Shown: one piece after another, positions 10,037 to 35,110 of the stretch
Layout: every line of letters starts with the position of its first letter
Position numbering within the stretch: position 1 is the stretch's first letter
Origin: Arenicella xantha
GTDB taxonomy: Bacteria; Pseudomonadota; Gammaproteobacteria; Arenicellales; Arenicellaceae
DNA length: 64,000 nucleotides
Direction of reading: 5' to 3'
Assembly (NCBI RefSeq): GCF_003315245.1
Contig: NZ_QNRT01000001.1
Span: 1,087,457-1,151,456, forward strand
Notes under the pieces: model-generated
Seen by the model: the letters and a program-made list of their open reading frames with translations, nothing else
Databases searched by the model: none
Told to the model about the DNA's origin: nothing
Program-made: the position numbers and the translations under genes

Positions 10037-10288
10037 AAGGCGGAACGGCAGAGGTTGAGTCGATGATGACGTAAGACCCGAGTCTTGCCGTAAACCTTGC
10101 AGTATATTCTTCGATGCCATGAAAAATAGCAATCGCAAGCCTTGAGAGTGGTGCGGATCTTAACCTAGGCGCGGCACTACGCGTGTGATGACCTAATTCT
10201 CAGATAGCACTAATATAGATAACACAGAGCCGTTCGCTCAGAGGCTTCCAACCTGTACTCTATTATTTTCAGGCAAATTTTTTACAGC

Positions 10289-10612
10289 CTAATACTGTGA
10301 TTCCGGCAAATGAATCACTACACCATCAAGCTCTCCAGTCATTTTTAATTGGCAGCTCAGACGGCTTGTGTCACGACATTCGGCCTCGGCGCATTCCAGC
10401 ATATCGACTTCGTCGCCACTGCGTTCAGGAAACTTGTCGGCCCATGCTGGATCCACATAAACATGGCACGTCGCACATGCCATGGCACCACCACACTCCG
10501 CTTGAATGCCATCAATGTCATTAGCAATTGCACCTTCCATAATGCTGTCGCCAACAGGCACGTCAAACGTTTTTGAGGTTCCGTCATGTTCGATATAAGT
10601 TACATTTGGCAT
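10289..10612 (-). CDS. [2Fe-2S] ferredoxin, adrenodoxin type
   Basis: Small electron carrier of 107 residues. Cluster ligands Cys40, Cys46, Cys49 and Cys87 follow the C-x5-C-x2-C-x37-C spacing of vertebrate-type/adrenodoxin-like ferredoxins. GDSIMEGAIANDIDGIQAEC and the acidic GDEVDMLECAEAE partner-recognition region are typical. It lies 36 bases after the reductive-dehalogenase-like gene on the same strand. It is the obvious electron link between the 2-oxoacid:ferredoxin oxidoreductase and the dehalogenase homologue of this operon. It could also serve another oxygenase. No reductase gene is adjacent, which supports reduction by the oxidoreductase; that last point is inference. Confidence 0.9.
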   Translation of the reverse strand: MPNVTYIEHDGTSKTFDVPVGDSIMEGAIANDIDGIQAECGGAMACATCHVYVDPAWADKFPERSGDEVDMLECAEAECRDTSRLSCQLKMTGELDGVVIHLPESQY

Positions 10613-10648
10613 AATAAAATTCTAGTCGGTCAAAGTTCGAAAAAAGGG

Positions 10649-12013
10649 TTAAGGTGTCACTGGCTCGGCTTGTGAACGTTCTTTAGTATTGGCGCGTAAA
10701 TCCTTAACGCGTTGCTGACGTTGGGCTTTTTCTGGGTCGATTGGATGATCCGAAGCGACCTCGATTTTTATATCTTTCAATCCGGCCTTCCTGCCCCACC
10801 AGAGATGAGATGGCAATTGATCATGCAGCCGTAATCGGTCGTCTATTTTCAGCGCTAGCTTACGCAGCGGCGTACCGAGTAACCAACGCAATACTCTAAA
10901 ACGGCGTTGCGAAAAGTCCTTGTTATAAACGCAGGTACGAATGCAGTTAGCGCAATCAGTGCCTTTTGACACCCAGAACTTAAAACATTTCTCGGCGTCA
11001 GTAGTCCACTTAACAATACCCTTAATATTTGAGCGATTAAAGGTATAGTCCGATGGCTCTCCATGGTCAATGGCTTGTGGTGGGCAGTTGTTAGCGCAGC
11101 GCCGACAAATCTGACACGTCTCGGTCACGCCGAAGCGTTGTGGTTTATCAGTTTGCAACGGCATATCAGTCAACACTCGACCAAAACGGACTCGCGGACC
11201 AAACTCTTTAGTAATCACAATACCGCTCCGACCATACTCTCCAAGGCCAGCTTTAATTGCATACGGAATCGCCAGATTAGTGTCATTTTGGCAGGCCACT
11301 GCTTGGTAACCCAAGCTGCGAATGTATTGCGCCACAGCCAATAGAATGACCGCATCGTCGGCATAGCCAATAGCTGGTGCGGTACTCGCGGTGCTTGATG
11401 GCGAGGTACGTATTAATTCGTAGTCCATTGCTTTCGCCAGCACCACCACATTAGTCAGGCCTTCGGGCAATTCTAGCGGTTCATTACTGAGCGTTCTCGC
11501 ACTGAATTTCCCGACATAGTTTAGCCGCTCTTCGTAATCGGTAATACCGACCAAATCCGCGCCGTACAACTTGGCAACTTTCTTGATTTCAACGGAAGCT
11601 TGTACAGGATCTTCAATTGATACGGGGTCTAGTTTAGGCGGTATATGCGGCTTGAAATTGTCCCAGAAGCCATCACGACGATCTTCGGTTTTGTGTCGCT
11701 CGGCGAGCATTTCAGTAACAACCCAGGGGCCATTGCGCAACGCATAATCATGCGCTTCATAGCCATCTGCGTCACGCGATCGCTCAGTCGGTTTAACGAA
11801 CGAGCGAAAGAATTTATACACCATCTTGTTCTGGACTTTCTTATCCCAAAAGCCACGACAGAACATGTCATTGGGCTGATTGAACGGCTCAAATTCGGGT
11901 GTGATGGTGATATTTTCGAAGCCACAAAGTGCTTCGTTTTGTGTCGGCGCGAAATTCTTGGTCGGCTTTAAATTGTCTGGATTAAACTCGTCAGCTGTTT
12001 TCATGTCCGCCAT
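10649..12013 (-). CDS. Cytoplasmic reductive dehalogenase homologue (RdhA-like)
   Basis: Corrinoid/Fe-S protein of the reductive dehalogenase family (related to QueG), 454 residues. The core AGLGEYGRSGIVITKEFGPRVRFGRVLTDMPL (about 255-286, cited as landmarks GEYGRSG, FGPRVRFG and TDMPL) is the RdhA signature. A first 4Fe-4S motif C-x2-C-x2-C-x3-CP sits at Cys300/303/306/310. A second set, Cys343 in EKCFKFW plus Cys354/357/361 in GTDCANCIRTC, matches RdhA except that the usual proline after the last cysteine is valine. There is no Tat signal and no fused reductase domain, so it is cytoplasmic and needs an external donor, probably the downstream ferredoxin. The substrate is unknown. Its place in an isatin/anthranilate-type operon hints at a halogenated aryl substrate (inference). 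Confidence 0.85.
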   Translation of the reverse strand: MADMKTADEFNPDNLKPTKNFAPTQNEALCGFENITITPEFEPFNQPNDMFCRGFWDKKVQNKMVYKFFRSFVKPTERSRDADGYEAHDYALRNGPWVVTEMLAERHKTEDRRDGFWDNFKPHIPPKLDPVSIEDPVQASVEIKKVAKLYGADLVGITDYEERLNYVGKFSARTLSNEPLELPEGLTNVVVLAKAMDYELIRTSPSSTASTAPAIGYADDAVILLAVAQYIRSLGYQAVACQNDTNLAIPYAIKAGLGEYGRSGIVITKEFGPRVRFGRVLTDMPLQTDKPQRFGVTETCQICRRCANNCPPQAIDHGEPSDYTFNRSNIKGIVKWTTDAEKCFKFWVSKGTDCANCIRTCVYNKDFSQRRFRVLRWLLGTPLRKLALKIDDRLRLHDQLPSHLWWGRKAGLKDIKIEVASDHPIDPEKAQRQQRVKDLRANTKERSQAEPVTP

Positions 12014-12132
12014 ATTTACCCACCTTACTAAATGAATTTAACTGCCACGAGCCCTCACCGAAGACACGCATTGCGATAACTGCCCGCTAATCTTTACTCC
12101 CAACTCTCAGACTGTTAACACTGAAACGATAA

Positions 12133-13671
12133 TTAGCCTGCAACTGCCGAGGACATTTCGCTGTTTAGCTGTGCACCCGACTCTTCGGCTAGCGCGGCAT
12201 CACGCAGACGCGTAATCACCTGGCTCGGCTCAGATTTGCTCATGATCTTCGGTAGACTCGCTACAATGCTCGAGTAATTCGCCCAACCACGCTCATGGGT
12301 ATCACCGTAACCTTTAATCAACCGCTGGCATTGCGCTAGCGACACGCCGCTTTGATAATCGCTGCTAGCAGTGCTCGCAACTAGATTTAACCAGTCGTCG
12401 ATACGTGTATGCTCGCGCTTAAAGCGCAACGTGCTACGCCGAATACCTCTAAATTTTGCGGTAACGTAGAGCATGAGAAAGCCGCCTAGCTTTGACGTAT
12501 TGATTTTTCGCTCCTTACAAAAGTAGCTAACCATTGCGCGCAGTGGCGCGACGTTCAATATCATGTTGCCAAACCAACTTGGCATGGTATCGGCAATCTC
12601 TTCCAAGCGCGGATGCATAAACTCAACCACATGCACCACATCACCGGGTTTAGCTTTAACATGGTCTTTATAACGGGTAAAACGCTGCTGCCGGATCTTT
12701 AAATCCGCCACCCGAATGGTGTCTTCATACGACATCCATAATGCAAGGTAACGTGCGACTTCACGCGTTAAGGCAAACTGTTGCGATTCGCCGCCATTCG
12801 CTAGATCCGTGTCTAAAACCTTAATCAATTGCTGTAAATATTCGTCGGCGTAAGCGATATCTTGATAATCAACTAAGCGCTTGATGCCTTCTACGGCAAA
12901 TTCGTGGGCTTGCTCAGGCAATACGCTTTTTATAGTGTTCAACAAAGCTTGCAACTTTGGCTGCGTGGCAGTCGGAAACCTAAACTCCTGCGCAGAGGAT
13001 GTGCTATCGGAAACCGCATGAGTATTGTTTAGCAGCGCTTGCGCTCGTGCATAACCCGCATTAAAACCGGCTAAATTTGATTCAACCGCTTTGCCACCCT
13101 GACGAATCACTTGCTCAAACTGCTCGCGTTCAAATGGCAGCTGATTACTGCCCGCCAATGAACCAAACAAGATAGCACTGATCATGCATCCGGTATCAAT
13201 CGCCGTTTGCTGCATATCAAAGCCAATAAAATTTTTGGCATGCTCACGGGCACCAGCAATGATTAACTCCGAATTTGCGCGGCCGTCGCCAAGCACTTCT
13301 TTCTCGGCTTGCGAATACAGACGATGCGTTGACACAATAAAAGTGGTTTGCTCAGGCGTGACCAATCCACGGGTTACCGCACGACCGGCTTCGACCAGTT
13401 CTCCAGCCACCACGATATCGACATCACCTTCAACCGGCATCAAGGCCATCACCGGCTCTTTGGCGGCCTGCTTAGAGAGTTCTTCAGGAAACAACTCAAT
13501 ATAGTAAATGGTGGAACCGGTTCGCTGCGCAACACCCGGTACAGAAGTGTACTGAGCGTAATATTGATTGCTCTCGGCCAGCGCGACCATCCACGCGGAT
13601 AGAACGCCACCACCTTGTCCACCCATTGCCGCAATCGCCAACTTGATTGGCTGTTTCGTCGTATTTGTCAT
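12133..13671 (-). CDS. Indolepyruvate oxidoreductase beta-type subunit (large)
   Basis: Beta (gamma-domain) subunit of a 2-oxoacid:ferredoxin oxidoreductase. The N-terminal 200 residues carry the CoA/acceptor domain (KLAIAAMGGQGGGVLSAWM, YTSVPGVAQRTGSTIYYIE, MLMPVEGDVDIVVAGELVEAG read as landmarks). The remaining roughly 300 residues are a helical C-terminal region like that of the long proteobacterial IorB proteins (DUF6537-like), well beyond the roughly 190 residues of archaeal IorB. I chose the ATG giving MTNTTKQPIKLAIAAM, 4 bases after the alpha-subunit stop; an upstream start would overlap the alpha gene. It acts with the alpha subunit to decarboxylate an aryl 2-oxoacid, form the acyl-CoA and reduce ferredoxin. 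Confidence 0.85.
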   Translation of the reverse strand: MTNTTKQPIKLAIAAMGGQGGGVLSAWMVALAESNQYYAQYTSVPGVAQRTGSTIYYIELFPEELSKQAAKEPVMALMPVEGDVDIVVAGELVEAGRAVTRGLVTPEQTTFIVSTHRLYSQAEKEVLGDGRANSELIIAGAREHAKNFIGFDMQQTAIDTGCMISAILFGSLAGSNQLPFEREQFEQVIRQGGKAVESNLAGFNAGYARAQALLNNTHAVSDSTSSAQEFRFPTATQPKLQALLNTIKSVLPEQAHEFAVEGIKRLVDYQDIAYADEYLQQLIKVLDTDLANGGESQQFALTREVARYLALWMSYEDTIRVADLKIRQQRFTRYKDHVKAKPGDVVHVVEFMHPRLEEIADTMPSWFGNMILNVAPLRAMVSYFCKERKINTSKLGGFLMLYVTAKFRGIRRSTLRFKREHTRIDDWLNLVASTASSDYQSGVSLAQCQRLIKGYGDTHERGWANYSSIVASLPKIMSKSEPSQVITRLRDAALAEESGAQLNSEMSSAVAG

Positions 13672-13675
13672 CGCC

Positions 13676-15823
13676 TTAATCTTCCATCGCCCATCGCGCA
13701 CGCTTCTTTTCAATGCCGTTTTGTAAAAATCGAATGATGGATTGGCCTACTGAGTATCTAACTCGCTCGAACCAACCAGGGTTACGTACATAGTCTGCTC
13801 TGAAAAATGACGGACACAACACCGCCGCATGCGCAACTTCACCGCACACACCACAACCAACACAACTTTCTTCAACCTTGGCAACCGGGTCTTCTCGCAA
13901 TGGATCAGGGTTATCCGCAATTGACAACGACGGGCAACCAGACAAACGAATACAGGAATGATCACCGGTGCAAACATCGTCATCGATACCAAATTTTTGT
14001 TCGACCACGCGCTTGCCTTGTTTTACTCGCTCTACCCGTAATGGCTTTTCACGACGCGTTTTATTAAGCATGCACTCGCCTTCAGCAATGATCACTTTAG
14101 GGCCGACATGATCGGTCGTCATTGCATCACGTAAGGTTTGTAGGCTTTGCTTAATATTGTAAGTTTGAGTCCGCCTGACCCAACTAACGCCAACGCCTTT
14201 TACCGCGTCAACAATCGGGATTTTATATTGGCGGCTGTTCGCAACTGCCTTTGAAGAAGGTATCCACTGACCGCCGGTTGCCGCCGAATAACCGTTGTCG
14301 ACAATCACCGTAATGCCGTCGTGCTCATTCTCAACTGAATTACCAATTCCGCTGGTTAAGCCGTTGTGCCAAAACCCGCCATCGCCCATCAAACTGATCG
14401 GCCGACGTGTGTGTTTTAAATTTAGTGCCGATGAACTGGCCGCGCCGAGACCGTAGCCAACAATGGTGTTGCCTAAGTTAAATGGCGCGAGCGTAGCAAA
14501 CGAGTGACAACCAATGTCCGCACTCACTTGTAGTGGCCCAACTTCTCGTTGTAGCAACTTCATGGCTGTAAAGAACGGACGCTCCGGACATCCGGTGCAT
14601 AAGCCTGGTGGCCGTGCCGGTACGGTTTTAGCGATACTTTCAATTGGAATACTGATCTCGCGCACCGCCTTTTTAGGTGCTTCAAGCAATTCCGGTTGGG
14701 AGTTTTCGATAAACGCTTTAACGCCTTTGCGTAACACCGCGCCAGTGTATTCACCAGCCTTGAGTAACACGTCTTTACCGTAGACCTTGGTAGCAATATC
14801 AGCTTTACGCAATATGCTATGTAAATTCTGCTCTATGAAATCCGGCTGACCTTCTTCAATCATCAGCACCGCATCTTTGTCACGACAGAAACTCTCAAGC
14901 TCATCATCTACCAGCGGATAAGACACATTCATAACGTACAGAGGAATCGCCGAGTTACCAAAACTGTCAGACAAACCTAAGCCTTGTAGCGCACGAATAA
15001 CCCCGTTGTAGTGACCACCTAAGGTGATAATGCCAACGCGATCAGTTCTTGCACCAGGCATTAATTCGTTCAGCTTAGCCTTACGAATGTAATCGAGCGC
15101 CGCGGGCCATCGGTCATTAATCTTCTCTTGCTCATGACGAAAGGTATGCGGAGGAAGAATAATGGCATCGCCAGCACCAACTGGATTATCGAGTGCATCT
15201 TTGCGACTGAACAAGGCTTTCTTATTGTCCTTTGCAATAAACCGACCATGCATATGACACGCACGAATACGCATTTGATACATCACCGGCGTATGGCTGG
15301 CTTCCGACAAGCGAAAACCATGTTCAACCATCTCAGTCATGGTGTCTAAGTTGGGGCGCGGGTCCATCAGCCACATTTGTGATTTCATTGCAAAAGCGTG
15401 GGTCCGCTCTTGCATAATACTGGCGCCTTCGCCGTAGTCTTCACCAAGGATAATCAGCGCTCCGCCCTTAACCCCTGCCGACGCGATATTCGACAACGCA
15501 TCAGAAGCGACATTAGTGCCAACCGTTGACTTCCACGTCACTGCTCCACGCAAGGGATAATTGATGGATGCCGCCAACATAGCCGCGGCGGTTGCTTCAC
15601 TCGCCGAGCTCTCAAAATGCACATCAAGCTCTTCAAGCACATCATGGGCGTCAGCCAGCACGTCCATCAAATGCGACACCGGCGCACCTTGATAACCGCC
15701 TACATACGAGACCCCAGATTGCAGCAGTGCTTTAGTGACCGCCAAAATGCCTTCACCATGAAACTCGTCGCCATCGCCCAGACGTAACTTTTGTATTTCT
15801 TTGACGAACGAACGCTCAGCCAT
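13676..15823 (-). CDS. Indolepyruvate:ferredoxin oxidoreductase alpha-type subunit
   Basis: Thiamine-diphosphate subunit of a 2-oxoacid:ferredoxin oxidoreductase (IorA-like), 715 residues. The N-terminal pyrimidine-binding domain has SGVSYVGGYQGAPVSHLMDV and FESSASEATAAAMLAAS. The TPP motif SLMGDGGFWHNG...VIVDNGYSAATGGQW lies near 473-515, after the cluster-type CTGCPERPFF. The C-terminus carries ferredoxin-like cysteines: CTGDHSCIRLSGCP near 616 and CVGCGVCGEVAHAAVLCP near 654, the second interrupted by an insertion. The reaction class is aryl 2-oxoacid + CoA -> aryl-CoA + CO2 + reduced ferredoxin. Indolepyruvate is the classic substrate, but next to an isatin-hydrolase-like gene isatinate is equally plausible. 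TAGGAG precedes the start. It sits second in the operon. Confidence 0.88.
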   Translation of the reverse strand: MAERSFVKEIQKLRLGDGDEFHGEGILAVTKALLQSGVSYVGGYQGAPVSHLMDVLADAHDVLEELDVHFESSASEATAAAMLAASINYPLRGAVTWKSTVGTNVASDALSNIASAGVKGGALIILGEDYGEGASIMQERTHAFAMKSQMWLMDPRPNLDTMTEMVEHGFRLSEASHTPVMYQMRIRACHMHGRFIAKDNKKALFSRKDALDNPVGAGDAIILPPHTFRHEQEKINDRWPAALDYIRKAKLNELMPGARTDRVGIITLGGHYNGVIRALQGLGLSDSFGNSAIPLYVMNVSYPLVDDELESFCRDKDAVLMIEEGQPDFIEQNLHSILRKADIATKVYGKDVLLKAGEYTGAVLRKGVKAFIENSQPELLEAPKKAVREISIPIESIAKTVPARPPGLCTGCPERPFFTAMKLLQREVGPLQVSADIGCHSFATLAPFNLGNTIVGYGLGAASSSALNLKHTRRPISLMGDGGFWHNGLTSGIGNSVENEHDGITVIVDNGYSAATGGQWIPSSKAVANSRQYKIPIVDAVKGVGVSWVRRTQTYNIKQSLQTLRDAMTTDHVGPKVIIAEGECMLNKTRREKPLRVERVKQGKRVVEQKFGIDDDVCTGDHSCIRLSGCPSLSIADNPDPLREDPVAKVEESCVGCGVCGEVAHAAVLCPSFFRADYVRNPGWFERVRYSVGQSIIRFLQNGIEKKRARWAMED

Positions 15824-15913
15824 CTAGATGCTCCTACTTAAAGTGATCACAATTACCATACTCGGATTAGTATCTTGCCACTAATATTAAACAGCTTACT
15901 TGTATTACGTGCC

Positions 15914-16717
15914 TCACTGGGCAGGCTCTTGTGCGCGATCTGGCACTAAGGCTAATACACGTAATGGACTACCCGAGCCATTCAAAATTTTCAACGGCGC
16001 GCTAATGATTACAGCGCCAGTCGCTGGCAACTGATCGAGGTTGGTCATGCATTGCAGCCCGTACTTGCCAGACCCCATGAAAAAATAATGATGTGGATAC
16101 GGCGGATCAAAACTAAACGCTTGGCCAGCATCAGTTCCTACCGTTTCACAACCAAAGCCTAAGACATCACGCTCTTCTATCATCCAACGACAAGCCGCTA
16201 CGTCAGGGCCCGGCGAATGTGCGCCGTCTTCTTGCATATTAGTGTAATTATCAGGATCAGCGACTTTACGCCAATCTGAACGCAGGAATACCCAACAGCC
16301 AGCAGGAATAGTACCGTGCTCGGCTTCCCACTTTTGCAGATGCTCAACCGTTAAGATAAAACCTTTATCAGCCGCAACTTCTTTGGAGCAATCGATCACC
16401 ACTACTGGCGCAATCATGTTTTCCACAATGAGTGTGTCAGTCGAACCATTGGGTAAATCTTTACCGGTTACCCAATGACATGGTGCATCAAAATGCGTAC
16501 CAGTATGCTCACTCAAGGTAATGTTTTGCCAGTACCAAGCAGGGCCGTCACCATCATACTTAGAGATAACTTCCGCACTAAATGGCAACGCCTGTTTGAA
16601 CTCTTCCGGCAATTGAATAGTCGGGTATTCAGGGCGTAAGGTCTCAGTAAGATCGACCATCTTAATTCCGCCTTGCGCTATTTCGGTAATCAAACCGTTT
16701 AATACTGTTGCTGACAT
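15914..16717 (-). CDS. Cyclase-family metal hydrolase, isatin-hydrolase-like
   Basis: Cyclase family (PF04199) hydrolase with the metal motif HTGTHFDAPCH (His71, His75, Asp77, His81). Family members with this motif include kynurenine formamidase KynB and isatin hydrolase. The 267-residue length is longer than KynB (about 210) and close to isatin hydrolases. The WYWQNITLSE stretch before the motif could line an aromatic pocket. It is the first gene of the operon with the 2-oxoacid:ferredoxin oxidoreductase, 90 bases upstream of it. Isatin hydrolysis yields isatinate (2-aminophenylglyoxylate), a 2-oxoacid suited to that enzyme. Assignment to isatin rather than another cyclic amide or formamide is inference from length and context. 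A 16-base palindrome lies 70 bases before the start. Confidence 0.8.
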   Translation of the reverse strand: MSATVLNGLITEIAQGGIKMVDLTETLRPEYPTIQLPEEFKQALPFSAEVISKYDGDGPAWYWQNITLSEHTGTHFDAPCHWVTGKDLPNGSTDTLIVENMIAPVVVIDCSKEVAADKGFILTVEHLQKWEAEHGTIPAGCWVFLRSDWRKVADPDNYTNMQEDGAHSPGPDVAACRWMIEERDVLGFGCETVGTDAGQAFSFDPPYPHHYFFMGSGKYGLQCMTNLDQLPATGAVIISAPLKILNGSGSPLRVLALVPDRAQEPAQ

Positions 16718-16951: not shown

Positions 16952-18184
16952 TTACTGACAGCGCTCGATAATCATCGACAAACCCTGACCGACGCCAACG
17001 CACATGGTGCACAAAGCATAGCGGCCGTGTGTTCTTTCAAGTTGCCGCAAAGCGGTATAGACAATGCGTGCACCGGACATACCTAAGGGATGACCGAGTG
17101 CAATACCACCGCCGTTTACATTAACCCGCGGATCGTCATCGGCAATTTCAAGCCCGCGCAATACCGACAAAGCCTGTACTGCGAACGCTTCATTGAGTTC
17201 TATAACATCAATATCCGCCAACGACAGCCCGGCGATATTCAATACTTTGTGAGTCGCAGGCACTGGTCCTATGCCCATAAATTTCGGCTCGACGCCGACG
17301 CTGGCCATGGCCACAATACGACCGCGTGGCGCCAAACCGTATTTTGATATGCCGCTATCGCTGGCTAACAATAGCGCGCAGGCGCCGTCATTAACGCCGG
17401 AGGCATTGCCGGCAGTTACCGAACCGTCAACTCTAAACGGCGTCGACAATTTAGCTAATTTTTCAACGCTGGTATCTGCGCGAATATGCTCATCGTGCTC
17501 AACCTTAAATGGCTCACCACGGCGCTGAACGATCTCGACAGGGACGATTTCATCCGCAAAAAAACCACAGGCTTGCGCTGCACCGGCCTTGTGCTGACTA
17601 GCCGCCGCAAAGGTGTCTTGATCCGCTCGGGAAACGTGGTACTTCTCGGCTAGGTTTTCAGCGGTCTCAGGCATCGATTCAGTACCGTATTGCGCCTGCA
17701 GAGCCTTATTGATAAAACGCCAACCAATCGTGGTATCAAATATCTGCGCGTTACGACTAAATGCCGTGTCGGCTTTGGGCATCACCAATGGCGACCGAGA
17801 CATCGATTCGACGCCTCCCGCCACGATAATTTCGGCCTCGTTTAACTTCAGTGCGCGAGCAGCTTGGCCAACAGCCTCCATGCCCGAACCACACAAACGA
17901 TTTACCGTCACACCGGCAACCGCCACGTCTAAACCAGCCAATAGCGATGCCATGCGCGCCACATTTCGATTGTCTTCGCCGGCCTGATTGGCACAACCTA
18001 GAATTACCTCATCTACTACCGACCAATCAAGATTTGGGTTTCGTGCTTTGAGTTCGCGAATTGGAATAGCCGCAAGGTCATCAGCACGCACACTCGACAG
18101 CGCGCCGCCGTAACGACCGATGGGCGTTCGAATCCCATCACAGATATACGCATTATTGGTAGCAGGTTTGGGCATGACTGACAT
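16952..18184 (-). CDS. 3-oxoacyl-CoA thiolase, PcaF/PaaJ type
   Basis: Thiolase closing a beta-oxidation-type spiral, 410 residues. Catalytic residues are visible: Cys98 in NRLCGSGMEA, the His of GGGIALGHPLGMSG and the second Cys in CTMCVGVGQG. The sequence is very close to the 3-oxoadipyl-CoA thiolase subgroup (YICDGIRTPIGRYGG, CANQAGEDNRNVARM, DTTIGWRFIN), which cleaves 3-oxo dicarboxylyl-CoAs. In this cluster the likely substrate is a C6 or C7 3-oxo dicarboxylyl-CoA such as 3-oxoadipyl- or 3-oxopimelyl-CoA (inference). It starts 3 bases after the thioesterase stop and is the last gene of a three-gene operon with thioesterase and glutaryl-CoA dehydrogenase. Confidence 0.92.
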   Translation of the reverse strand: MSVMPKPATNNAYICDGIRTPIGRYGGALSSVRADDLAAIPIRELKARNPNLDWSVVDEVILGCANQAGEDNRNVARMASLLAGLDVAVAGVTVNRLCGSGMEAVGQAARALKLNEAEIIVAGGVESMSRSPLVMPKADTAFSRNAQIFDTTIGWRFINKALQAQYGTESMPETAENLAEKYHVSRADQDTFAAASQHKAGAAQACGFFADEIVPVEIVQRRGEPFKVEHDEHIRADTSVEKLAKLSTPFRVDGSVTAGNASGVNDGACALLLASDSGISKYGLAPRGRIVAMASVGVEPKFMGIGPVPATHKVLNIAGLSLADIDVIELNEAFAVQALSVLRGLEIADDDPRVNVNGGGIALGHPLGMSGARIVYTALRQLERTHGRYALCTMCVGVGQGLSMIIERCQ

Positions 18185-18187
18185 CGC

Positions 18188-18595
18188 TTATGTTTCTAAC
18201 ATTAATTGCTTCAGCTCAGGTGGAATCTCACTAGCATTAATTCCACCTCCGCCGGTCTTCTCGATATACACCATCGTGAGATTACCTTTAAGGCGTACCT
18301 CATCGTCGCAAACCGCTTCTAACACGATACTGATCGAGCTCCGACCAACCTTCTCGACCGTCAGCGCAAAAGTCAATACATCGCCTAGCCGACTCGGCAG
18401 TTTAAAATCGACATCAATATGAACCACCGGCACACCAGCATTGAGGTCTTCATGTAAACGCTGAAAGTCGTAACCTAATTGCCCTTCACACCACTCTTCA
18501 ATCACTTGATTGAACATTTCGAAGTAACGCGGGTAGAACACCAAGCCGGCAAAATCGACATGGTTAAACCTTACTTTAATATCGGTGTTGAACAT
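18188..18595 (-). CDS. 4HBT-type hotdog acyl-CoA thioesterase
   Basis: Hotdog-fold thioesterase of the 4-hydroxybenzoyl-CoA thioesterase type, 135 residues. The N-terminal signature VRFNHVDFAGLVFYPRYF contains the active-site Asp14, and EEWCEGQLGYDF follows on the long helix. It probably hydrolyses stalled or toxic aryl-CoA esters to free CoA, a common companion of aerobic aryl-CoA pathways. It lies between glutaryl-CoA dehydrogenase (45 bases upstream) and the thiolase (3 bases downstream). An assignment to a specific ester cannot be made from sequence. Confidence 0.88.
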   Translation of the reverse strand: MFNTDIKVRFNHVDFAGLVFYPRYFEMFNQVIEEWCEGQLGYDFQRLHEDLNAGVPVVHIDVDFKLPSRLGDVLTFALTVEKVGRSSISIVLEAVCDDEVRLKGNLTMVYIEKTGGGGINASEIPPELKQLMLET

Positions 18596-18640: not shown

Positions 18641-19837
18641 CTATTGAAATGCCTGCAGCCCAGTTTGAGCCCGACCAAGAATCAACGCATGGATGTCGTG
18701 TGTGCCCTCATAAGTGTTAACCGCTTCGAGGTTCATTGCGTGGCGAATAATATGATACTCATCAGCCACCCCATTTCCGCCGTGCATATCACGTGCGACG
18801 CGCGCAATATCGAGTGCTTTACCACAGTTGTTGCGCTTCATAAGTGACACCGATTCCGGCCCTGTTGCACCTTGGTCAATAGCGCGACCAACTGCTAATG
18901 CACCGTTTAAACCAAGCGCAATTTCAGTTTGCATGTCTGCCAACTTCTTCTGTATTAATTGGTTCGCAGCGAGCGGTCGACCGAACTGTTTTCGCTCCAT
19001 TGTGTATTGACGTGCAGCGTGCCAGCAAAACTCCGCCGCCCCCATAGAACCCCACGCAATACCGTAGCGCGCTCGGTTAAGACAGCCGAATGGACCGCCT
19101 AATCCAGAGATATTTGGCAGGAGATTTTCTTCTGGAACAAACACTTCATCCATAACGATTTCCCCAGTAATAGATGCTCTTAGAGAGAACTTACCCTCTA
19201 TCTTCGGCGCGCTCAGACCTTCCCAACCTTGTTCCAGAATAAATCCCCGAATCTTCCCATCATCGGTTTTTCCCCACACAACAAACACATCAGCGATCGG
19301 CGAATTTGTGATCCACATTTTCGCGCCGCTCAATTTATAACCGCCGTCCACAGAGCGGGCTCGCGTAATCATCGAGCCTGGATCTGAGCCATGATCTGGC
19401 TCAGTTAAACCAAAACAACCCACATGCTCGCCAGAAGCCAGCTTAGGGAGATATTTATTCCGCTGCTCTTCCGAGCCATACGCATAGATTGGATACATTA
19501 CTAAGCTTGATTGAACACTCATCGCTGAGCGATAACCGGAATCGACACGCTCAACTTCGCGCGCAATCAAACCATAGCTAACGTAATTAAGTCCGGAGCC
19601 GCCATATTGCTCAGGCAATGTGGCACCGAGTAAACCGAGCTCACCGAACTGGGTCATGATCGATCTATCGAAAACCTCATTGCGATTTGCTTCAACGATG
19701 CCAGGCATAAGCTTGTCTTGGCAGAACGCGTGAGCGGTCTCCATAACCATGCGCTCTTCGTCAGACAAATTATTGTTAAAGCACAGAGGGTCTTCCCAAT
19801 TGAAGGTACCTTCTACAGTAGCGATGTTGCCAGTCAC
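18641..19837 (-). CDS. gcdH: Glutaryl-CoA dehydrogenase
   Basis: FAD-dependent decarboxylating dehydrogenase converting glutaryl-CoA to crotonyl-CoA and CO2, 398 residues. The catalytic base sits in the diagnostic [20 protein letters not shown] (Glu near 377). The substrate-carboxylate arginine context [17 protein letters not shown] is conserved, as are [17 protein letters not shown] and [18 protein letters not shown]. It is first in the operon with thioesterase and thiolase and divergent from the SDR/MarR operon. In this setting it would drain glutaryl-CoA formed when a C7 dicarboxylyl-CoA is thiolysed, as in benzoyl-CoA-derived pimelyl-CoA routes. It could equally serve lysine or tryptophan degradation. 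Confidence 0.92.
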
Positions 19838-20002: not shown

Positions 20003-20761
20003 ATGATGAATAATCCATTACAAGGCAAGCACGCAATTATCACTGGTGGTGGTACCGGAATTGGCGCCGCAATAGCGGACACACTGACCGAACTTGGCGC
20101 GCGCGTAACGTTAATGGGGCGGCGCTTAGACGTGTTGAGTGACAAGGCCGACAGCTTGGCTGGAGCCTCCGCAATCGCGGTAGATGTATGTGACGAGGCC
20201 TCAGTAACTAGCGCCTTTGCACAAGCTGGTGACTACGACATTTTAATTAACAATGCCGGTTTAGCGCAGAGCGCGCCAGTCAATAGAACGTCGCTAGCGC
20301 ATTGGGACAAGACCATCAGTGTTAATTTGACGGGAGTTTTTCTCTGCTCAAAACACGCTGTCGATATGTTAAGAAAGAAAGACTATGGACGCATAATTAC
20401 CATTGCCAGCACCGCTGGCTTGACTGGCTACGGCTATGTCAGCGCATACTGTGCGGCCAAACACGGCGCAATTGGCTTTACCAAGGCGCTCGCAAAAGAG
20501 ATGGCCAGAACCGCAACCACCGTGAACGCGGTATGCCCGGGATACACCGAAACCGCCATATTAAGCGACACCATAGCTAACATTGTCAGTAAAACCGGTT
20601 GCACTGAGCAAGCCGCGCGAGATCAGTTATTAGTCGATAACCCGCAGAAAAAATTTATCCAGCCCAATGAAGTCGCGAGCATTACCGCCTCATTATGTTT
20701 GGCGGCAAGCAATTCAATTACTGGGCAAGCCATTGCGGTTGACGGGGGAGAGACGGCTTAG
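20003..20761 (+). CDS. SDR-family NAD(P)-dependent dehydrogenase
   Basis: Short-chain dehydrogenase/reductase of classical length (252 residues). The cofactor motif GGGTGIGAA is near residue 12. NNAG is near 88, the catalytic Ser lies in TIASTAGLTG, and YCAAKHG gives Tyr-x3-Lys. The C-terminus AVDGGETA is typical of FabG-like members. It heads a plus-strand operon with a MarR regulator, a crotonase, an acyl-CoA dehydrogenase and a Rid protein. In aerobic 2-aminobenzoyl-CoA degradation clusters an SDR of this kind is regularly present; a role in reducing the ring ketone made by the monooxygenase/reductase is inference. The exact substrate is not shown by the sequence. Confidence 0.85.
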   Translation: MMNNPLQGKHAIITGGGTGIGAAIADTLTELGARVTLMGRRLDVLSDKADSLAGASAIAVDVCDEASVTSAFAQAGDYDILINNAGLAQSAPVNRTSLAHWDKTISVNLTGVFLCSKHAVDMLRKKDYGRIITIASTAGLTGYGYVSAYCAAKHGAIGFTKALAKEMARTATTVNAVCPGYTETAILSDTIANIVSKTGCTEQAARDQLLVDNPQKKFIQPNEVASITASLCLAASNSITGQAIAVDGGETA

Positions 20762-20837
20762 TGCTAAACAGACTTTTAAATAAGCGGTATCCTAACCGTT
20801 TGATATACCAAAGTTAGATCGACCAGAGGGAAGAATA

Positions 20838-21344
20838 ATGAGTCAAGTAGCCATTCCAAGATCAGCTCGCATAGATTCGAGCAAACTGACAAAGTCGCGT
20901 AGCAAACAAGCGCTCCGCTTATGGCTGCGCCTGTTTTCATGTCAATCGATGATCGAAGACATTATTCGTGTTCGCTTGCGCGACGATCATGGCATTACGC
21001 TTCCTCAATTCGATGTATTAGCCGAGCTTGATAATGCTGACGAACCGTTGACCATGTCGGAATTGTCGCAACACTTAGTAGTATCCAACGGCAATATCAC
21101 TGGCGTTATCGATCGACTGGAACGCGAAAAATTTCTCAAACGCGTACGCTCTGACCAAGACCGCCGAGTTCAGTACATTCAGTTAACCGATAGCGGTCAA
21201 GAGCGTTTCAAAGCGATCGCTGCCGAACATGAAACTTGGGTCGCCGATTTATTTTCAGCACTAGATCGGGACGAAGTTGACCAAATGATCAATACCCTTA
21301 AGAAAACCAAAGAGTCGATTCAGGGCAAATCCAACAAAACTTAA
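20838..21344 (+). CDS. MarR-family transcriptional regulator
   Basis: Winged-helix repressor of 168 residues. The DNA-binding part is visible as [41 protein letters not shown] (landmarks SELSQHL and [11 protein letters not shown]), followed by the wing [20 protein letters not shown]. Such MarR proteins usually sense an aromatic acid or its CoA ester and are commonly found in aryl-CoA catabolic clusters. An AGAGGGAAG ribosome site precedes the start. It sits second in the SDR operon, so it would repress its own synthesis. Candidate targets are the palindromes before the cyclase gene, before the SDR gene and between the monooxygenase and the old-yellow-enzyme gene. Confidence 0.88.
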
Positions 21345-21357
21345 AGACACAACATCC

Positions 21358-22158
21358 ATGAAAGATAAGCCTTCACATTTCAAGCTCGACATCAACGATC
21401 AGGTTGCGACCATCACGATTAATCGTCCTGAGCGCAAAAACCCTTTAACCTTTGAGTCTTACGCTGAACTTCGCGATTACTTTCGCGACTTGGTTTATCG
21501 AGATGACATCAAAGCCGTGGTGTTAACCGGAGCCGGCGGCAACTTCAGCTCAGGTGGTGATGTGCATGAGATCATTGGCCCGCTAACCAGAATGGAAATG
21601 CCCGAACTGTTGGCATTCACCAGAATGACCGGCGACCTAATTAAGGCCATGCGCGCCTGTCCACAACCGATTATTGCCGCGGTCGACGGAATTTGTGTTG
21701 GTGCTGGCGCGATAATGGCAATGGCCAGCGACATTCGGTTGGCAACTCCGTCTGCCAAAACCGCGTTTCTATTCACGCGGGTAGGTTTAGCCGGTTGCGA
21801 CATGGGCGCATGCGCCATATTACCGCGCATTATTGGCCAAGGGCGCGCCTCTGACTTGCTATATACCGGCCGCAATATGAGTGCCGACGAAGGTGAACGA
21901 TGGGGTTATTTCAATCGCATCTGTGATTCTGAATCTTTGCTCGAAGAAGCTACCGCATACGCCAATAGGTTAGTTAGCGGACCCAACTTTGCGCACGGCA
22001 TGACCAAAACAATGCTCCACCAAGAGTGGAATATGAGCATAGACCAAGCGATAGAAGCCGAAGCTCAAGCACAAGCGATCTGCATGAAGACCCAAGATTT
22101 TAAGCGCGCTTATGATGCGTTTGCCAATAAGAAAACGCCCGAATTCAAAGGGGATTAA
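21358..22158 (+). CDS. Crotonase-family protein with Asp in place of hydratase Glu
   Basis: Enoyl-CoA hydratase/isomerase superfamily protein, 266 residues. Oxyanion-hole stretches are [12 protein letters not shown] near 61 and [20 protein letters not shown] near 102. Where hydratases have two catalytic glutamates, this protein reads [19 protein letters not shown], with neither Glu. Instead an Asp sits where MenB and BadI-type ring-closing or ring-opening crotonases and 4-chlorobenzoyl-CoA dehalogenase carry theirs. It lies between MarR and an acyl-CoA dehydrogenase (2-base gap). A hydrolytic ring-cleaving role on the dearomatised 2-oxo-cyclohexane-carboxyl-CoA type intermediate is my inference. 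Confidence 0.83.
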
Positions 22159-22160
22159 CT

Positions 22161-23336
22161 ATGTCTGACAAGTCTTTTTTAGATTGGCCGTTCTTCGATG
22201 CTAAACATAAAACACTCGCGCTAGATCTTGAAAAATGGTGTGACGCCAATCTTGATGATGAACATCCACACGACATTGATCAAGCCTGTCGAGACCTAGT
22301 TGAAAAATTGGCCGCCGGCGGTTGGCTGACCTATGCCGCACCAGTAGCCAACCAATACGGTGAAGTCAAACTAGACGTAAGATCACTCTGTATTATCCGC
22401 GAAACTCTCGCGCGCTATTCAGGGTTGGCAGATTTTTCTTTCGCCATGCAAGGCTTGGGTAGCGGGTCAATCTCGCTCTTCGGCACACCGGCAATAAAAG
22501 ACCACTACCTACCACGTGTTCGCAACGGGCAAAATATTGCCGCATTTGCATTGTCCGAACTCGAAGCCGGTTCTGACGTCGCGGCAATGCAGACCAGCGC
22601 AGTACTCGACGGCGATGAATACATTATCAATGGTAGCAAAACCTGGATATCTAACGGCGGTATTGCTGACCATTATGTAGTGTTCGCGCGCACCGGAGAA
22701 ATGCCTGGATCCAAAGGACTAAGTGCATTTGTAGTTGACGCCGACACTGCCGGGCTGAGCATTGAAGAACGCATCGAAGTCATTGCTCCGCACCCTCTAG
22801 CAACGCTTAAGTTCACCGATATGCGCGTGCCCAAGCAAAACCTATTGGGCAACCCTGGTGAAGGCTTTAGGGTTGCCATGGCCACCTTAGATATTTTTCG
22901 CTCTACGGTCGGTGCGGCATCGATGGGCTTTGCACGCAGAGCGCTCGACGAGAGTTTACACCGAGCCAATACCCGAGAACTATTCGGCGCACCGTTGTTT
23001 GACCTGCAAGCAACGCAGACCAAAATTGCCGATATGGCGGTGGATATCGATGCCAGCGCGCTGTTAATTTATCGCGCAGCGTGGACCAAAGACTGCGTTA
23101 AAGATCGTGTGACTCGCGAAGCGGCAATGGCCAAACTTTACGCCACAGAATCAGCACAGAAATCCATCGACCAAGCGGTTCAGTTATTTGGCGGCATGGG
23201 CGTGAAGAAAGGCTGCATCGTTGAAAGCCTGTATCGTGAAGTACGAGCACTAAGGATTTATGAAGGCGCCTCGGAAGTCCAAAAAACCATTATCGCCAAT
23301 CAAACCAATCAGCTTTTTAAAGCGCAAAGCATTTAG
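22161..23336 (+). CDS. Acyl-CoA dehydrogenase
   Basis: FAD-dependent acyl-CoA dehydrogenase of standard length (391 residues). FAD and substrate motifs are [15 protein letters not shown] near 132 and [26 protein letters not shown] near 156. The catalytic Glu lies in [17 protein letters not shown] near the C-terminus. It belongs to the MarR-linked operon and probably introduces a double bond into an alicyclic or ring-opened acyl-CoA after 2-aminobenzoyl-CoA dearomatisation. Two nucleotides separate it from the crotonase stop. It is not a glutaryl-CoA dehydrogenase, since it lacks the THDIHAL signature found in the other dehydrogenase of this cluster. Confidence 0.9.
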
Positions 23337-23357
23337 ATCTGCAATAGTTAAATAGTT

Positions 23358-23750
23358 ATGAGAAAGATTTTACAACCAGAAGGATGGCGACAACCGAAAG
23401 GCTACTCTAATGGCATATTGGCGCAAGGGCCGATGGTGTTCACCGGTGGAATAATTGGCTGGGACGAGCAAGAAATCATCCAATCCGACCACCTCGCTGA
23501 CCAAGTTCGTCAAGCACTGCTAAACACTGTTGCGGTTTTAAATGAAGCCAATGCCAAACCCGAGCACATCGTCAGAATGACTTGGTATGTAACCGACAAA
23601 CAAGCCTATTTGGAACAAGGCAAGGAAATCGGCCAGCATTATCGTGAAATCTTAGGTAAGAATTTTCCAGCCATGGCGCTAGTACAAGTGTTAGCGCTAG
23701 TTGAAGACAAGGCAAAAGTCGAGATTGAAACGACCGCTGTCATTAGTTAG
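23358..23750 (+). CDS. Rid-family protein without the catalytic Arg
   Basis: YjgF/YER057c/UK114 (Rid) family protein, 130 residues, normal for the family. GYSNGILAQGPMVFTGGIIGWDE and IVRMTWYVTD are family landmarks. At the position where RidA imine deaminases have the substrate-binding arginine (P-A-R-x-x-V-E-V) this protein reads PAMALVQVLAL, so it falls in a Rid subgroup that lacks the canonical residue. It is the last gene of the MarR-linked operon. Since 2-amino-5-oxocyclohexene-carboxyl-CoA is an enamine, help with hydrolysing the amino group is a natural idea, but the missing Arg argues for a different mechanism or only a binding role. Confidence 0.85.
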   Translation: MRKILQPEGWRQPKGYSNGILAQGPMVFTGGIIGWDEQEIIQSDHLADQVRQALLNTVAVLNEANAKPEHIVRMTWYVTDKQAYLEQGKEIGQHYREILGKNFPAMALVQVLALVEDKAKVEIETTAVIS

Positions 23751-23942
23751 TCAAAAGCGTTTTACTAGCCCCCTCAATAAACCCTTAATGCGCCGGCTGC
23801 CAACGGCGTATTAAGCGGGTCAACACCGTCATCCCGAGCTCCTTTATAGCGACGCGCAACATTAATGGCTCGCCGCTCAAGCCCGTAACTTAATTCTATT
23901 CGCTGTTAGCTAAATAGCCAGCCTTGCACGCGCGAGCCGGAC

Positions 23943-23976
23943 AAAAAAAAGCGAGTATCATCCACGCGATACTCGC
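23943..23976 (-). terminator. Intrinsic terminator after the aminobenzoyl-CoA monooxygenase gene
   Basis: GCGAGTATC and GATACTCGC form a perfect nine-pair stem with an eight-base loop. On the minus strand the stem is followed by eight T residues, so it ends the monooxygenase transcript 45 bases past its stop. On the plus strand only a weak A/T stretch follows. Confidence 0.85.
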
Positions 23977-24020
23977 CTAAAAAATAAGTGCAGGAGGATA
24001 TAGCGCACTTAGAACTACCT

Positions 24021-26396
24021 TTAACTCAATTCTTTTCGCCCCAGCGCCAGTGCCAAAGCATCATTCGGCGACGGTGGTTTAGCATTAATGCGCAACTCTC
24101 GCATTTCATCGCTCTCACGCTTAGCCAATAACCCAGCTTGAAACTTACCCGAGGTGTATTGCTCAGGCCAATGCTGCTCACTGTGGCCGTAGCGCGCCGC
24201 TTCTTGCAGCACCATATTTGGATTGGTTAGCAATGGTCGGGCAAACGCCACAAAGTCAGTACGGCCTGCGGCTACCAAGGTGTTGGCTTGATCAATACTT
24301 GAGATATTGCCCGCCACAATGGTGGGAATACCAACCTCATTGCGCACTTGATCGGCAAACGGCACCTGAAACATACGACCGTAAACTGGCTTTTCGGCCT
24401 TAGTCACCTGCCCTGTCGAGACATTGATTACGTCGGCGCCATTGGCTTTAACTAAACGTGCGACTTCGAGCATATCGTCCTCGCTTAACCCATTCTCAAT
24501 CCAATCGGATGCCGAAATACGCACCGAGATTGGTTTATGTGCCGGCCATACTTCGCGCGCGACTCTCAAGCATTCCAGCGGGAACTTCATGCGGGCATGG
24601 ATGTCGCCACCATACTCATCGCTGCGAATATTTGTTACAGGACTAATAAAACTCGAGAGCAAATAGCCATGAGCCATGTGAACTTCGATCATGTCGAACC
24701 CAGCGGCATCAGCATGGCCTACTGAAACCCGATAGTCTTCGAGCACTTGATCCATATCCGCGCGGCTTGCTTCACGTGGCACCACTGAATTTTCTAAATA
24801 CGCAATTGGGCTTGCCGAAATAATGTCCCAGCCGCCCTCTTCCAGCGGTTGATCCATGCCATGTTTTGGCAAACGCGTTGCACCTTTACGTCCAGCATGA
24901 CCTAACTGTGCACAAATTTTTCCTTCGCCGTACTGATGAGTAAAATCGACAATACGCTGCCAATCCTGCGCTTGCTTAGCGGTATACAAACCGGCACAAC
25001 CAGGCGTGATTCGTGCCAGTTCAGAGATACAAATCATCTCAGTCAGGATCAAGCCAACACCGCCAATCGCGCGACCACCGTAATGAACCAAATGCCAATC
25101 GCTAATATCGCCGTCGTGCGCACAGTATTGGCACATCGGGCTCAAGGTGACGCGATTAGGAACGACCATTTCGCCAATCTTATACGGCTGTAAAGCTGGT
25201 GGAGCTGGCCTATCATCGGTTTTCGCTATTGCTAAACCAGTCACCTTGGCATTGTGCTTGGCAAACCAGTCGGTAATGCCATCAATGTATTTTTGGTCGC
25301 GCAAAGCAAGATTGTCATAGGTAATCTTTTTCGAGCGCGTGATCATGCTGAACTCAGTTTGTTCCGGATCGAATTGATTCAAATAACGATCAGCATGCTC
25401 AAACCACTGCAAGCTAACATCGGCCGTGTGTTGCAATATCTCGGTAACTTCGCGACGCGCTGCATCATACGCTGGCAATGTAGCCTCAACTGTTTGGTGC
25501 TGTTTAAACGCCTCAAACAATGCAATGCTGTCTTCCATTGCCATTTTGGTACCAGAACCGATAGAAAAGTGCGCGGTGTGTGCGCAATCACCAATGATAA
25601 TGACGTTGTCATGGTGCCATTTGGCATTCTTAACCACCGGAAAAGTTCTCCAAACCGAGCGATTAGTTAACAATGAATGTCCATCTAAATCTGGCTCGAA
25701 GATCTTTTCCATATAGGCTTTAGAGTCTTCTTCAGACATTTGATCTAGCCCGGCACTTTTCCAAGTTTGGTCAGTTGTCTCGACCAACCAAGTCGCTTTA
25801 CCTTGTTCAAATTGATAAGCATGAACCCAAAACCAGCCATGCTCAGTTTGTCTAAAGATAAACGTGAATGCATCAAGCGGCTTTGACGTTCCTAACCAGC
25901 AAAAACGGTTCGGTCGCATATCAATAGTCGTGCCCAACTGCTCTTTAAATTTCTCTCGCAGCAGGCTAGTAATGCCGTCGGCCGCGACCACTAGATCAGC
26001 ATCGAGTAGCTCGTCAACTTCGGTTATGTCAGTTTCAAAATGTAGGTTCACACCCAGTTCGTCGCATCGCTCGTGAAAGATATTCAACAGCTTGAGGCGC
26101 GACATACCAGCGAAACCGTGTCCACCTGAGACAATATTCTTGTCACCGTCTGGTGTTTCAATAACCGTACGAATTTGGTCCCAATAGGCAAACGAATCGA
26201 CAATTGCCTGAAATGATTTTGCATCATACTCGAGGAAACCGCCCATGGTGTCGTCCGAAAAAACCACACCAAAGCCCCACGTTGCATCACGCGGGCCACG
26301 CTCATACAAATGAATGTCGTGCGAAGGATCATGCTTTTTCATTAATAAAGCAAAGTACAGGCCACCAGGCCCTCCGCCCAAAATATTTATTCTCAC
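24021..26396 (-). CDS. 2-Aminobenzoyl-CoA monooxygenase/reductase (fused flavoprotein)
   Basis: Two flavoenzymes in one chain of 791 residues. Residues 1-390 are an FAD aromatic hydroxylase (GGGPGGLYFALLMKKH at 7, GFGVVFSDD at 42, GDCAHTAHFSIGSGTKMAMEDS near 270). Residues 400-780 are an old-yellow-enzyme reductase (LSPMCQYCAHDGDISDWHLVHYG as landmarks PMCQY and HLVHYG; QLGHAGRKG; EVHMAHGYLLSSF). This is the layout of the 2-aminobenzoyl-CoA monooxygenase/reductase of Azoarcus evansii and of proteins named salicylyl-CoA 5-hydroxylase/oxidoreductase. It hydroxylates C5 of the CoA-bound aromatic ring and reduces it to a non-aromatic amino-oxo-cyclohexene ester. It is a single-gene unit divergent from the second old-yellow-enzyme gene, with a palindrome between them. 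Confidence 0.92.
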   Translation of the reverse strand: MRINILGGGPGGLYFALLMKKHDPSHDIHLYERGPRDATWGFGVVFSDDTMGGFLEYDAKSFQAIVDSFAYWDQIRTVIETPDGDKNIVSGGHGFAGMSRLKLLNIFHERCDELGVNLHFETDITEVDELLDADLVVAADGITSLLREKFKEQLGTTIDMRPNRFCWLGTSKPLDAFTFIFRQTEHGWFWVHAYQFEQGKATWLVETTDQTWKSAGLDQMSEEDSKAYMEKIFEPDLDGHSLLTNRSVWRTFPVVKNAKWHHDNVIIIGDCAHTAHFSIGSGTKMAMEDSIALFEAFKQHQTVEATLPAYDAARREVTEILQHTADVSLQWFEHADRYLNQFDPEQTEFSMITRSKKITYDNLALRDQKYIDGITDWFAKHNAKVTGLAIAKTDDRPAPPALQPYKIGEMVVPNRVTLSPMCQYCAHDGDISDWHLVHYGGRAIGGVGLILTEMICISELARITPGCAGLYTAKQAQDWQRIVDFTHQYGEGKICAQLGHAGRKGATRLPKHGMDQPLEEGGWDIISASPIAYLENSVVPREASRADMDQVLEDYRVSVGHADAAGFDMIEVHMAHGYLLSSFISPVTNIRSDEYGGDIHARMKFPLECLRVAREVWPAHKPISVRISASDWIENGLSEDDMLEVARLVKANGADVINVSTGQVTKAEKPVYGRMFQVPFADQVRNEVGIPTIVAGNISSIDQANTLVAAGRTDFVAFARPLLTNPNMVLQEAARYGHSEQHWPEQYTSGKFQAGLLAKRESDEMRELRINAKPPSPNDALALALGRKELS

Positions 26397-35026: not shown

Positions 35027-35110
35027 ACTAATGTAAACCCGCCAGACCACCGCATGTAGCGCTGGACAAAAATGTTATATAAAAAGAACGTTTTCAATTA
35101 CTTTGAAGTT

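Follow-up and report, generated by a model that had tools for sequence, protein, structure and literature searches.

What becomes of isatinate, the product of isatin hydrolysis, is a gap in the description of indole and auxin degradation, and a locus of the gammaproteobacterium Arenicella xantha raises the question directly. Within the 64,000-nucleotide stretch that we analysed (the window; contig NZ_QNRT01000001.1, positions 1,087,457 to 1,151,456), a gene for an isatin hydrolase homologue heads a putative operon that also encodes the two subunits of an IorAB-type 2-oxoacid oxidoreductase, an RdhA-like protein and a ferredoxin. Near this operon lies a cluster for 2-aminobenzoyl-CoA degradation (20003-26396) that was absent from an earlier note on this DNA, and it is this cluster that decides the interpretation: the operon and its divergent neighbour probably constitute a single isatin route, in which IorAB would give 2-aminobenzoyl-CoA without ATP.

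The five genes of the operon are as follows:

15914..16717, minus strand: isatin hydrolase, Mn-dependent cyclase family (PF04199)
13676..15823, minus strand: IorA-like alpha subunit, predicted isatinate:acceptor oxidoreductase, 2-aminobenzoyl-CoA forming (TIGR03336, TPP_enzyme_C)
12133..13713, minus strand: IorB-like beta subunit (NF006179/PRK08312, POR, DUF6537); the open reading frame starts at a TTG at 13713, and the likely start is the ATG at 13671
10649..12013, minus strand: RdhA-like soluble corrinoid/Fe-S protein (TIGR02486 and PF13486 over cut-off)
10289..10612, minus strand: [2Fe-2S] ferredoxin, candidate electron carrier (PF00111)

Down the minus strand the isatin hydrolase gene precedes those for IorA, IorB, the RdhA-like protein and the ferredoxin, after which comes a TonB-dependent receptor, with gaps of 90 bases between the hydrolase and iorA, 119 between iorB and rdhA, and 36 between rdhA and the ferredoxin, while iorA and iorB touch. 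The earlier note had assigned the isatin hydrolase, IorAB, the RdhA-like protein and the ferredoxin to one operon, and we agree, in that all five genes are real, lie on the minus strand and are suitably spaced; a promoter and terminator scan of the region gave no excess over shuffled sequence, so that the operon call follows from spacing and order. The TonB-dependent receptor (7805-10138, same strand as the ferredoxin and 150 bases downstream of it) may be a further member, with a possible function in substrate or B12 uptake.

In the proposed route the hydrolase would convert isatin to isatinate (2-aminophenylglyoxylate), and IorAB would combine isatinate with CoA to yield 2-aminobenzoyl-CoA and CO2, passing two electrons to ferredoxin or another acceptor and spending no ATP; it would stand in for the ATP-using 2-aminobenzoate-CoA ligase, and the [2Fe-2S] ferredoxin of the operon is a candidate acceptor for its electrons. 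The 2-aminobenzoyl-CoA monooxygenase/reductase (ACMR) would then, by homology to the enzyme of Aromatoleum (Azoarcus) evansii, hydroxylate and reduce the ring. Completion of the pathway by beta-oxidation would fall to the products of the SDR, hydratase, acyl-CoA dehydrogenase, RidA, thiolase and glutaryl-CoA-dehydrogenase-like genes (for the ring-attack and beta-oxidation chemistry we follow the available part of PMC4539516). The same role is predicted for IadA and IadB of auxin-degradation (iad) loci. The earlier note had proposed the IorAB step, and the context argues for it: IorA co-occurs with isatin hydrolase and ACMR, the operon adjoins the 2-aminobenzoyl-CoA (abm) cluster, and searches of the genome turned up nothing orthologous to the known ligase. 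The family identities, gene order and co-occurrence are read directly from the genomes; the substrate, product and electron acceptor of IorAB are our predictions from them.

The first enzyme is readily placed. Its protein matches the solved isatin hydrolases 5nna, 5nnb, 5nmp and 4j0n of the PDB with E values of 1e-80 to 1e-103 (5nna being the best at 1.1e-103), as against 6e-31 for another cyclase-family protein in that database. In the isatin hydrolase LaIHA, the Mn ligands and neighbouring residues are given as His69, His73, Asp75 and Gln219, and His79, His207 and Asp193 (PMC6117287, in the part available), and by alignment position all of them have counterparts in the window protein (H71, H75, D77 and Q222; H81, H210 and D196). 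That it is a close isatin hydrolase homologue retaining the catalytic residues, and not a kynurenine formamidase (KynB), is strongly supported by these sequence comparisons.

Judged from its domains, IorAB is a 2-oxoacid oxidoreductase pair of the thiamine pyrophosphate (TPP) and Fe-S type. IorB scores 639.5 bits against NF006179 (PRK08312), passing the cut-off of 348; IorA has both the TPP-binding domain PF02775 and the C-terminal Fe-S ligands, the latter as CxxDxxC and CxxCxxC motifs. The first of these motifs has an Asp replacing one Cys in all 56 rows of our IorA alignment; Cys is usual at that position by comparison with archaeal ferredoxins. Relatives of IorA in the PDB gave weak sequence matches only, the best being a pyruvate:ferredoxin oxidoreductase at 0.0033. 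The subunit architecture, with its TPP and Fe-S domains, is common to indolepyruvate:ferredoxin oxidoreductase and the window pair, which differs in falling below the equivalog cut-off, in belonging to a clade separate from more distant IorA, and in its linkage to isatin hydrolase and ACMR. In a tree of the 56 IorA rows (52 of them different), the window IorA lies in a clade of 42 with support of 99/100, and all rows that have isatin hydrolase, iadD or iadG no more than 12 kb away belong to this clade. Outside it are the rows of L040 and L041 (we use L for loci and G for genomes), relatives of 37-38% identity and others; rows from the isatin-hydrolase genomes G480, G482 and G497 also lie outside, three of these rows as part of a sister group. 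An ACMR-like match (37%) lies near each of the two IorA rows of L177 (G497).

The neighbouring genes, which supply the remainder of the proposed pathway, are these:

16952..18184, minus strand: 3-oxoadipyl-CoA thiolase, PcaF type, probable lower pathway (TIGR02430, 676.4 bits, cut-off 597)
18188..18595, minus strand: hot-dog thioesterase (4HBT; PF13279), with homologues in the ACMR clusters of L130 (46%) and L123 (33%)
18641..19837, minus strand: acyl-CoA dehydrogenase, glutaryl-CoA dehydrogenase-like (Acyl-CoA_dh domains; NF045552, 214 bits, under the cut-off of 470)
20003..20761, plus strand: SDR of the abm cluster (47-48% to the SDR of both A. evansii clusters)
20838..21344, plus strand: MarR regulator of the abm cluster (42-43% to the A. 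evansii clusters)
21358..22158, plus strand: enoyl-CoA hydratase PRK08258 (497.7 bits, cut-off 330; 65-66% to A. evansii)
22161..23336, plus strand: acyl-CoA dehydrogenase of the abm cluster (59-60% to A. evansii)
23358..23750, plus strand: RidA-type protein (57-59% to A. evansii)
24021..26396, minus strand: ACMR, a monooxygenase/OYE fusion (PRK08255; 49-50% to both A. evansii copies)
26536..28011, plus strand: separate OYE-type oxidoreductase, possible lower-pathway member (homologues in L047, 62%, and L131, 64%)

The first three of these lie upstream of the operon in the same direction and are divergent from 20003-23750. ACMR matches PRK08255 (NF006101) over residues 1-764 of 791 with 1027.5 bits, slightly under the cut-off of 1078. 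Homologues of the glutaryl-CoA-dehydrogenase-like gene with 76-81% identity adjoin ACMR or abm genes in L109, L129, L131 and L137, and those of the separate OYE-type gene adjoin isatin hydrolase and IorAB in L047 and ACMR in L131. The window and the A. evansii abm clusters have ACMR, SDR, MarR, hydratase, acyl-CoA dehydrogenase and RidA in common; they differ in gene order and strands, and in that the window has no orthologue of the 2-aminobenzoate-CoA ligase. A published title cited in PMC4539516 speaks of 'Two similar gene clusters', in agreement with the two abm clusters that we find, and in L193 (2729-18790) from this organism an IorA gene starts 4.3 kb from the ACMR of one of the two.

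Comparison across genomes shows that these genes travel together. Across 369 genomes sampled evenly from the class (thresholds of E <= 1e-60 for IorA, <= 1e-100 for ACMR and <= 1e-40 for isatin hydrolase; the counts are lower bounds, as up to three or two candidates were scored per genome), IorA is present in 14, ACMR in 16 and both in 10, with a hypergeometric p of 6.6e-13, although relatedness among the genomes means that p-values here and below overstate independence. Isatin hydrolase was detected in six of the 369, of which we dropped G335 (37% identity, E 2.4e-41); the remaining five contain IorA in four cases and ACMR in four, compared with 10/364 and 12/364 in the genomes that do not have the hydrolase. 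A scan of genome contigs yielded the isatin-hydrolase loci, of which we took the best 80 of at least 587 confirmed matches (stretches of 3.4 to 20.8 kb). IorAB lies within the stretch in 41 of these, 34 of them with iad genes; the other seven have isatin hydrolase and IorAB with no iad genes in view, and three of the seven also have ACMR. We then searched 49 isatin-hydrolase genomes, 38 from loci without IorAB nearby (there are 39 such loci; L082 was left out) and 11 from loci with it, a set that differs from the class sample in taxonomy and in the larger number of candidates scored. IorA (<= 1e-150) is present in 45 of the 49, elsewhere in the genome for 34 of the 38 and in all of the 11, the four misses being metagenome-assembled genomes (MAGs); ACMR is present in 47. 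We note separately that at L046 (1998-5380) a luciferase-like monooxygenase gene immediately precedes genes for an isatin hydrolase, with 71% identity to that of the window, and for IorA; the monooxygenase is a possible isatin-forming enzyme.

The window genome offers a natural test of the IorAB route, since searches of it recovered no orthologue of the alternative ligase. There is no ligase gene within its abm cluster, where 21 bases separate the acyl-CoA dehydrogenase gene from that for RidA, and in the whole genome (99.3% complete) the best score against the benzoate-CoA ligase family model TIGR02262 is 211.5 bits, with a cut-off of 375.25; a control search with this model matched 11 of 14 genomes, one of them above the cut-off. 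The ligase of the L026 abm cluster, which shares 58% identity with its counterparts in both A. evansii clusters, likewise has no match at E <= 1e-80 in the window genome. Because a true ligase can score below the TIGR02262 cut-off, as that of L026 does (351.8 bits), the absence is drawn mainly from two tiers of identity that appear when L026 is used to query 66 chosen genomes: the query's own genome aside, matches have either 49-61% identity (>=414 bits) or 34-39% (<=344 bits), and we count the upper tier, of 49-61%, as orthologues. The PRK06155 ligase of a Bradyrhizobium locus was dropped as a query, as at 205.9 of 375.25 bits it does not belong to the benzoate-CoA ligase family; its matches in the window genome reach no more than 26-35%. 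Among class-sample genomes with ACMR, a ligase orthologue is present in 12 of 12 that lack isatin hydrolase and in one of four that have it (G309; Fisher p 0.007), all three ligase-less ACMR genomes thus having the hydrolase. It is absent from eight of the 49 isatin-hydrolase genomes (G474, G478, G484, G491, G496, G513, G516 and G517), six of which have IorA and all of which have ACMR. Several of the ligase-less genomes are MAGs, some incomplete, and G516 is the isolate Providencia vermicola DSM 17385, in which the gene order (L123 7370-20775; L169) is SDR, styrene/indole-monooxygenase-like oxygenase, flavin reductase, isatin hydrolase, others, IorA, IorB, thioesterase and ACMR. This stretch, as annotated from its sequence, could explain the reported consumption of indole by Providencia.

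Decarboxylation of an arylglyoxylate to an aroyl-CoA has a chemical precedent. Phenylglyoxylate:acceptor oxidoreductase (PadEFGHI) of A. evansii performs such an oxidative decarboxylation; its subunit make-up differs from that of IorAB, and the substrate proposed here would carry an ortho-amino group. We found no published proposal that IorAB converts isatinate to 2-aminobenzoyl-CoA in the open-licence literature searched, a look-up that the earlier note had left to be made. The iad loci of Variovorax, Achromobacter and Bradyrhizobium (iadA, iadB, iadI) have an isatin-hydrolase-type gene and IorAB homologues in common with the window, which differs in that RdhA, a ferredoxin and the abm cluster accompany them; among the window open reading frames, to which the look-up was confined, none was recognised as Rieske IadDE, IadF or IadG. 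In the parts of the literature available, iorA/iadA and iorB/iadB serve as markers exclusive to iad-like operons (PMC9613470), the iadAB step in auxin degradation is left unassigned (PMC9613470, PMC12633357), and the main text of a 2025 preprint does not name iadA or iadB (PMC12633357). That preprint reports that C8H7NO3 and C7H7NO, which its authors take as intermediates before anthranilate, build up strongly only when iadC-K2 is overexpressed in the Variovorax locus-deletion background (PMC12633357, as available). C8H7NO3 is the formula of isatinate, and C7H7NO in our reading fits 2-aminobenzaldehyde; such a build-up would be expected if an isatinate-consuming enzyme had been lost.

Several observations weigh against the IorAB route. 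The same Variovorax deletion strain regains anthranilic acid when given iadC-K2 (PMC12633357, as available), and as the deletion spans genes 77-53, with iadA as gene 72 and iadC as gene 70 (PMC9613470, likewise), IadAB is evidently not needed to reach anthranilate in that organism. A ligase orthologue is kept in 41 of the 49 isatin-hydrolase genomes, and the window genome itself has six weaker matches to AMP-forming ligases, none over cut-off, one of which could activate anthranilate. The association among genomes has exceptions as well as the related membership mentioned above: G446 (71% complete) has isatin hydrolase and ACMR and no IorA; in G420 (99% complete; L028) isatin hydrolase adjoins IorA, but neither ACMR (at 1e-100) nor a ligase orthologue is present; G497 and G520 have isatin hydrolase and lack ACMR; and the 42-row IorA clade includes five ACMR genomes with no detected isatin hydrolase (G195, G201, G228, G318 and G321). 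The window IorA is under the cut-off for all four NCBIfam families that it matches, and nothing in the window could be identified as an isatin-forming enzyme.

Some of these points would be accommodated if isatinate passed mainly to free anthranilate, for example via 2-aminobenzaldehyde, and then to a ligase, with IorAB acting on another indole or auxin 2-oxoacid or on several arylglyoxylates. The formation of anthranilate without iadAB in Variovorax (PMC12633357, in part), the prevalence of the ligase orthologue and the presence of IorA clade members in ACMR genomes lacking the hydrolase all fit such a scheme, which we nevertheless think rather unlikely, as isatin hydrolase, IorA and ACMR occur with no ligase orthologue in the window genome, P. 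vermicola (G516), G351, G478, G491, G496, G513 and G517, although a number of them are incomplete MAGs, and a ligase unrelated to the known one could take its place. A separate proposition is that IorAB is an ordinary indolepyruvate or phenylpyruvate:ferredoxin oxidoreductase that forms arylacetyl-CoA from transaminated amino acids and is found in indole-related loci by chance. The best hidden Markov model matches do carry such family names, and more distant IorA proteins (50-51%) share the L040 and L041 stretches with a ligase-like gene that we take to be PaaK-like; but the window IorA is separated from the rows of those loci by the well-supported clade (99/100), reaches 272.3 bits of the 650.9 required for the indolepyruvate ferredoxin oxidoreductase alpha equivalog (TIGR03336), and tracks isatin hydrolase and ACMR across genomes, so that we regard this as quite unlikely.

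We give next to no credence to the reading of the hydrolase as a kynurenine formamidase that feeds tryptophan-derived anthranilate into the abm cluster, with IorAB unrelated. The two enzymes belong to the same Pfam family, and the arylformamidase model TIGR03035 does match the window protein weakly, at 28.9 bits; its cut-off is 223.05, however, and the match to KynB (4cob) has an E value of only 8.1e-5, against <=1e-80 for the four solved isatin hydrolases. The window genome also gave no match to tryptophan dioxygenase, and has no ligase orthologue to activate anthranilate. The formation of 2-aminobenzoyl-CoA from isatinate by IorAB is thus the reading that we prefer.

The RdhA-like protein and the ferredoxin are a different matter. 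The protein scores 175.5 bits against TIGR02486 (cut-off 160.35) and also passes PF13486, and it is closer to tetrachloroethene dehalogenase (PDB 8q4h, E 1.7e-52) than to epoxyqueuosine reductase (1.9e-7). It has eight Fe-S cysteines, for two Fe-S clusters, and its Y217, N243 and R276 align with PceA Tyr246, Asn272 and Arg305 (Y246, N272 and R305), which we take to be catalytic. These features are common to PceA and NpRdhA; the window protein differs in having no twin-arginine signal (there is no RRxF in its first 60 residues) and no fused reductase domain, and in adjoining the isatin operon. The earlier note had suggested that reduced ferredoxin formed by IorAB feeds this protein, and had called for a genome search for the four-gene order. 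The 80 isatin-hydrolase loci contain no relative of RdhA or of the ferredoxin at E <= 1e-10, nor of RdhA at 1e-15; we accordingly reject RdhA as a conserved partner of isatin hydrolase, the gene order does not recur in these loci, and the coupling, which is speculation, gains no support from conservation. The IorAB part of the earlier reading is supported by context; its ferredoxin-RdhA part is neither supported nor refuted by these results.

RdhA relatives of 42-46% identity are present in five other genomes of a sample of the order (n=109), and the three neighbourhoods examined (L042-L044) have no isatin genes. At E <= 1e-60 among 80 chosen genomes, relatives occur only in G000, G478 (44%) and G496 (52%, partial); G478 and G496 also belong to the isatin-hydrolase genomes without a ligase orthologue, and their RdhA contigs (3.5 and 9.6 kb) contain no isatin genes. 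A link between RdhA and isatin hydrolase is mildly favoured by a pairing, separate from that of the window, in L029 (7263-10083) and L030 (8371-11202; genomes G351 and G446), where an isatin-hydrolase-like gene (52%) lies beside genes for a 330-residue RdhA-like protein and a zinc-type alcohol dehydrogenase, with a luciferase-like monooxygenase gene near each pair. The single ferredoxin relative that was seen (57% identical) lies beside the Rieske iadDE and ACMR genes in L163 (G478), and the window ferredoxin may therefore serve an oxygenase. We also observe RdhA domains in open frames of about 1080 residues in L010, L008 and L012, L010 being from a congener of the window genome, and a 54% relative of the NRAMP-like transporter of the window (33710-35050) at L042 15063-16394 (G106), one gene from an RdhA relative. 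A debromination role for RdhA is thinkable because 6-bromoisatin is known as a product of marine molluscs (PMC5658094, in the part available): the hydrolase would open a haloisatin such as 6-bromoisatin, IorAB would make halo-2-aminobenzoyl-CoA and reduced ferredoxin, and RdhA would spend those two electrons on removing the halogen before ACMR acts. We think this scheme unlikely; if true, one molecule would undergo both oxidative decarboxylation and reductive dehalogenation, a closed redox pair in an oxygen-using bacterium.

If the proposed IorAB step is correct, a ferredoxin-linked and ATP-free entry to 2-aminobenzoyl-CoA would close the gap at isatinate and join two pathways that have been described separately. 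It would suggest how Providencia could consume the indole that it makes, and it would give a role to iadAB, the hallmark genes of iad loci.

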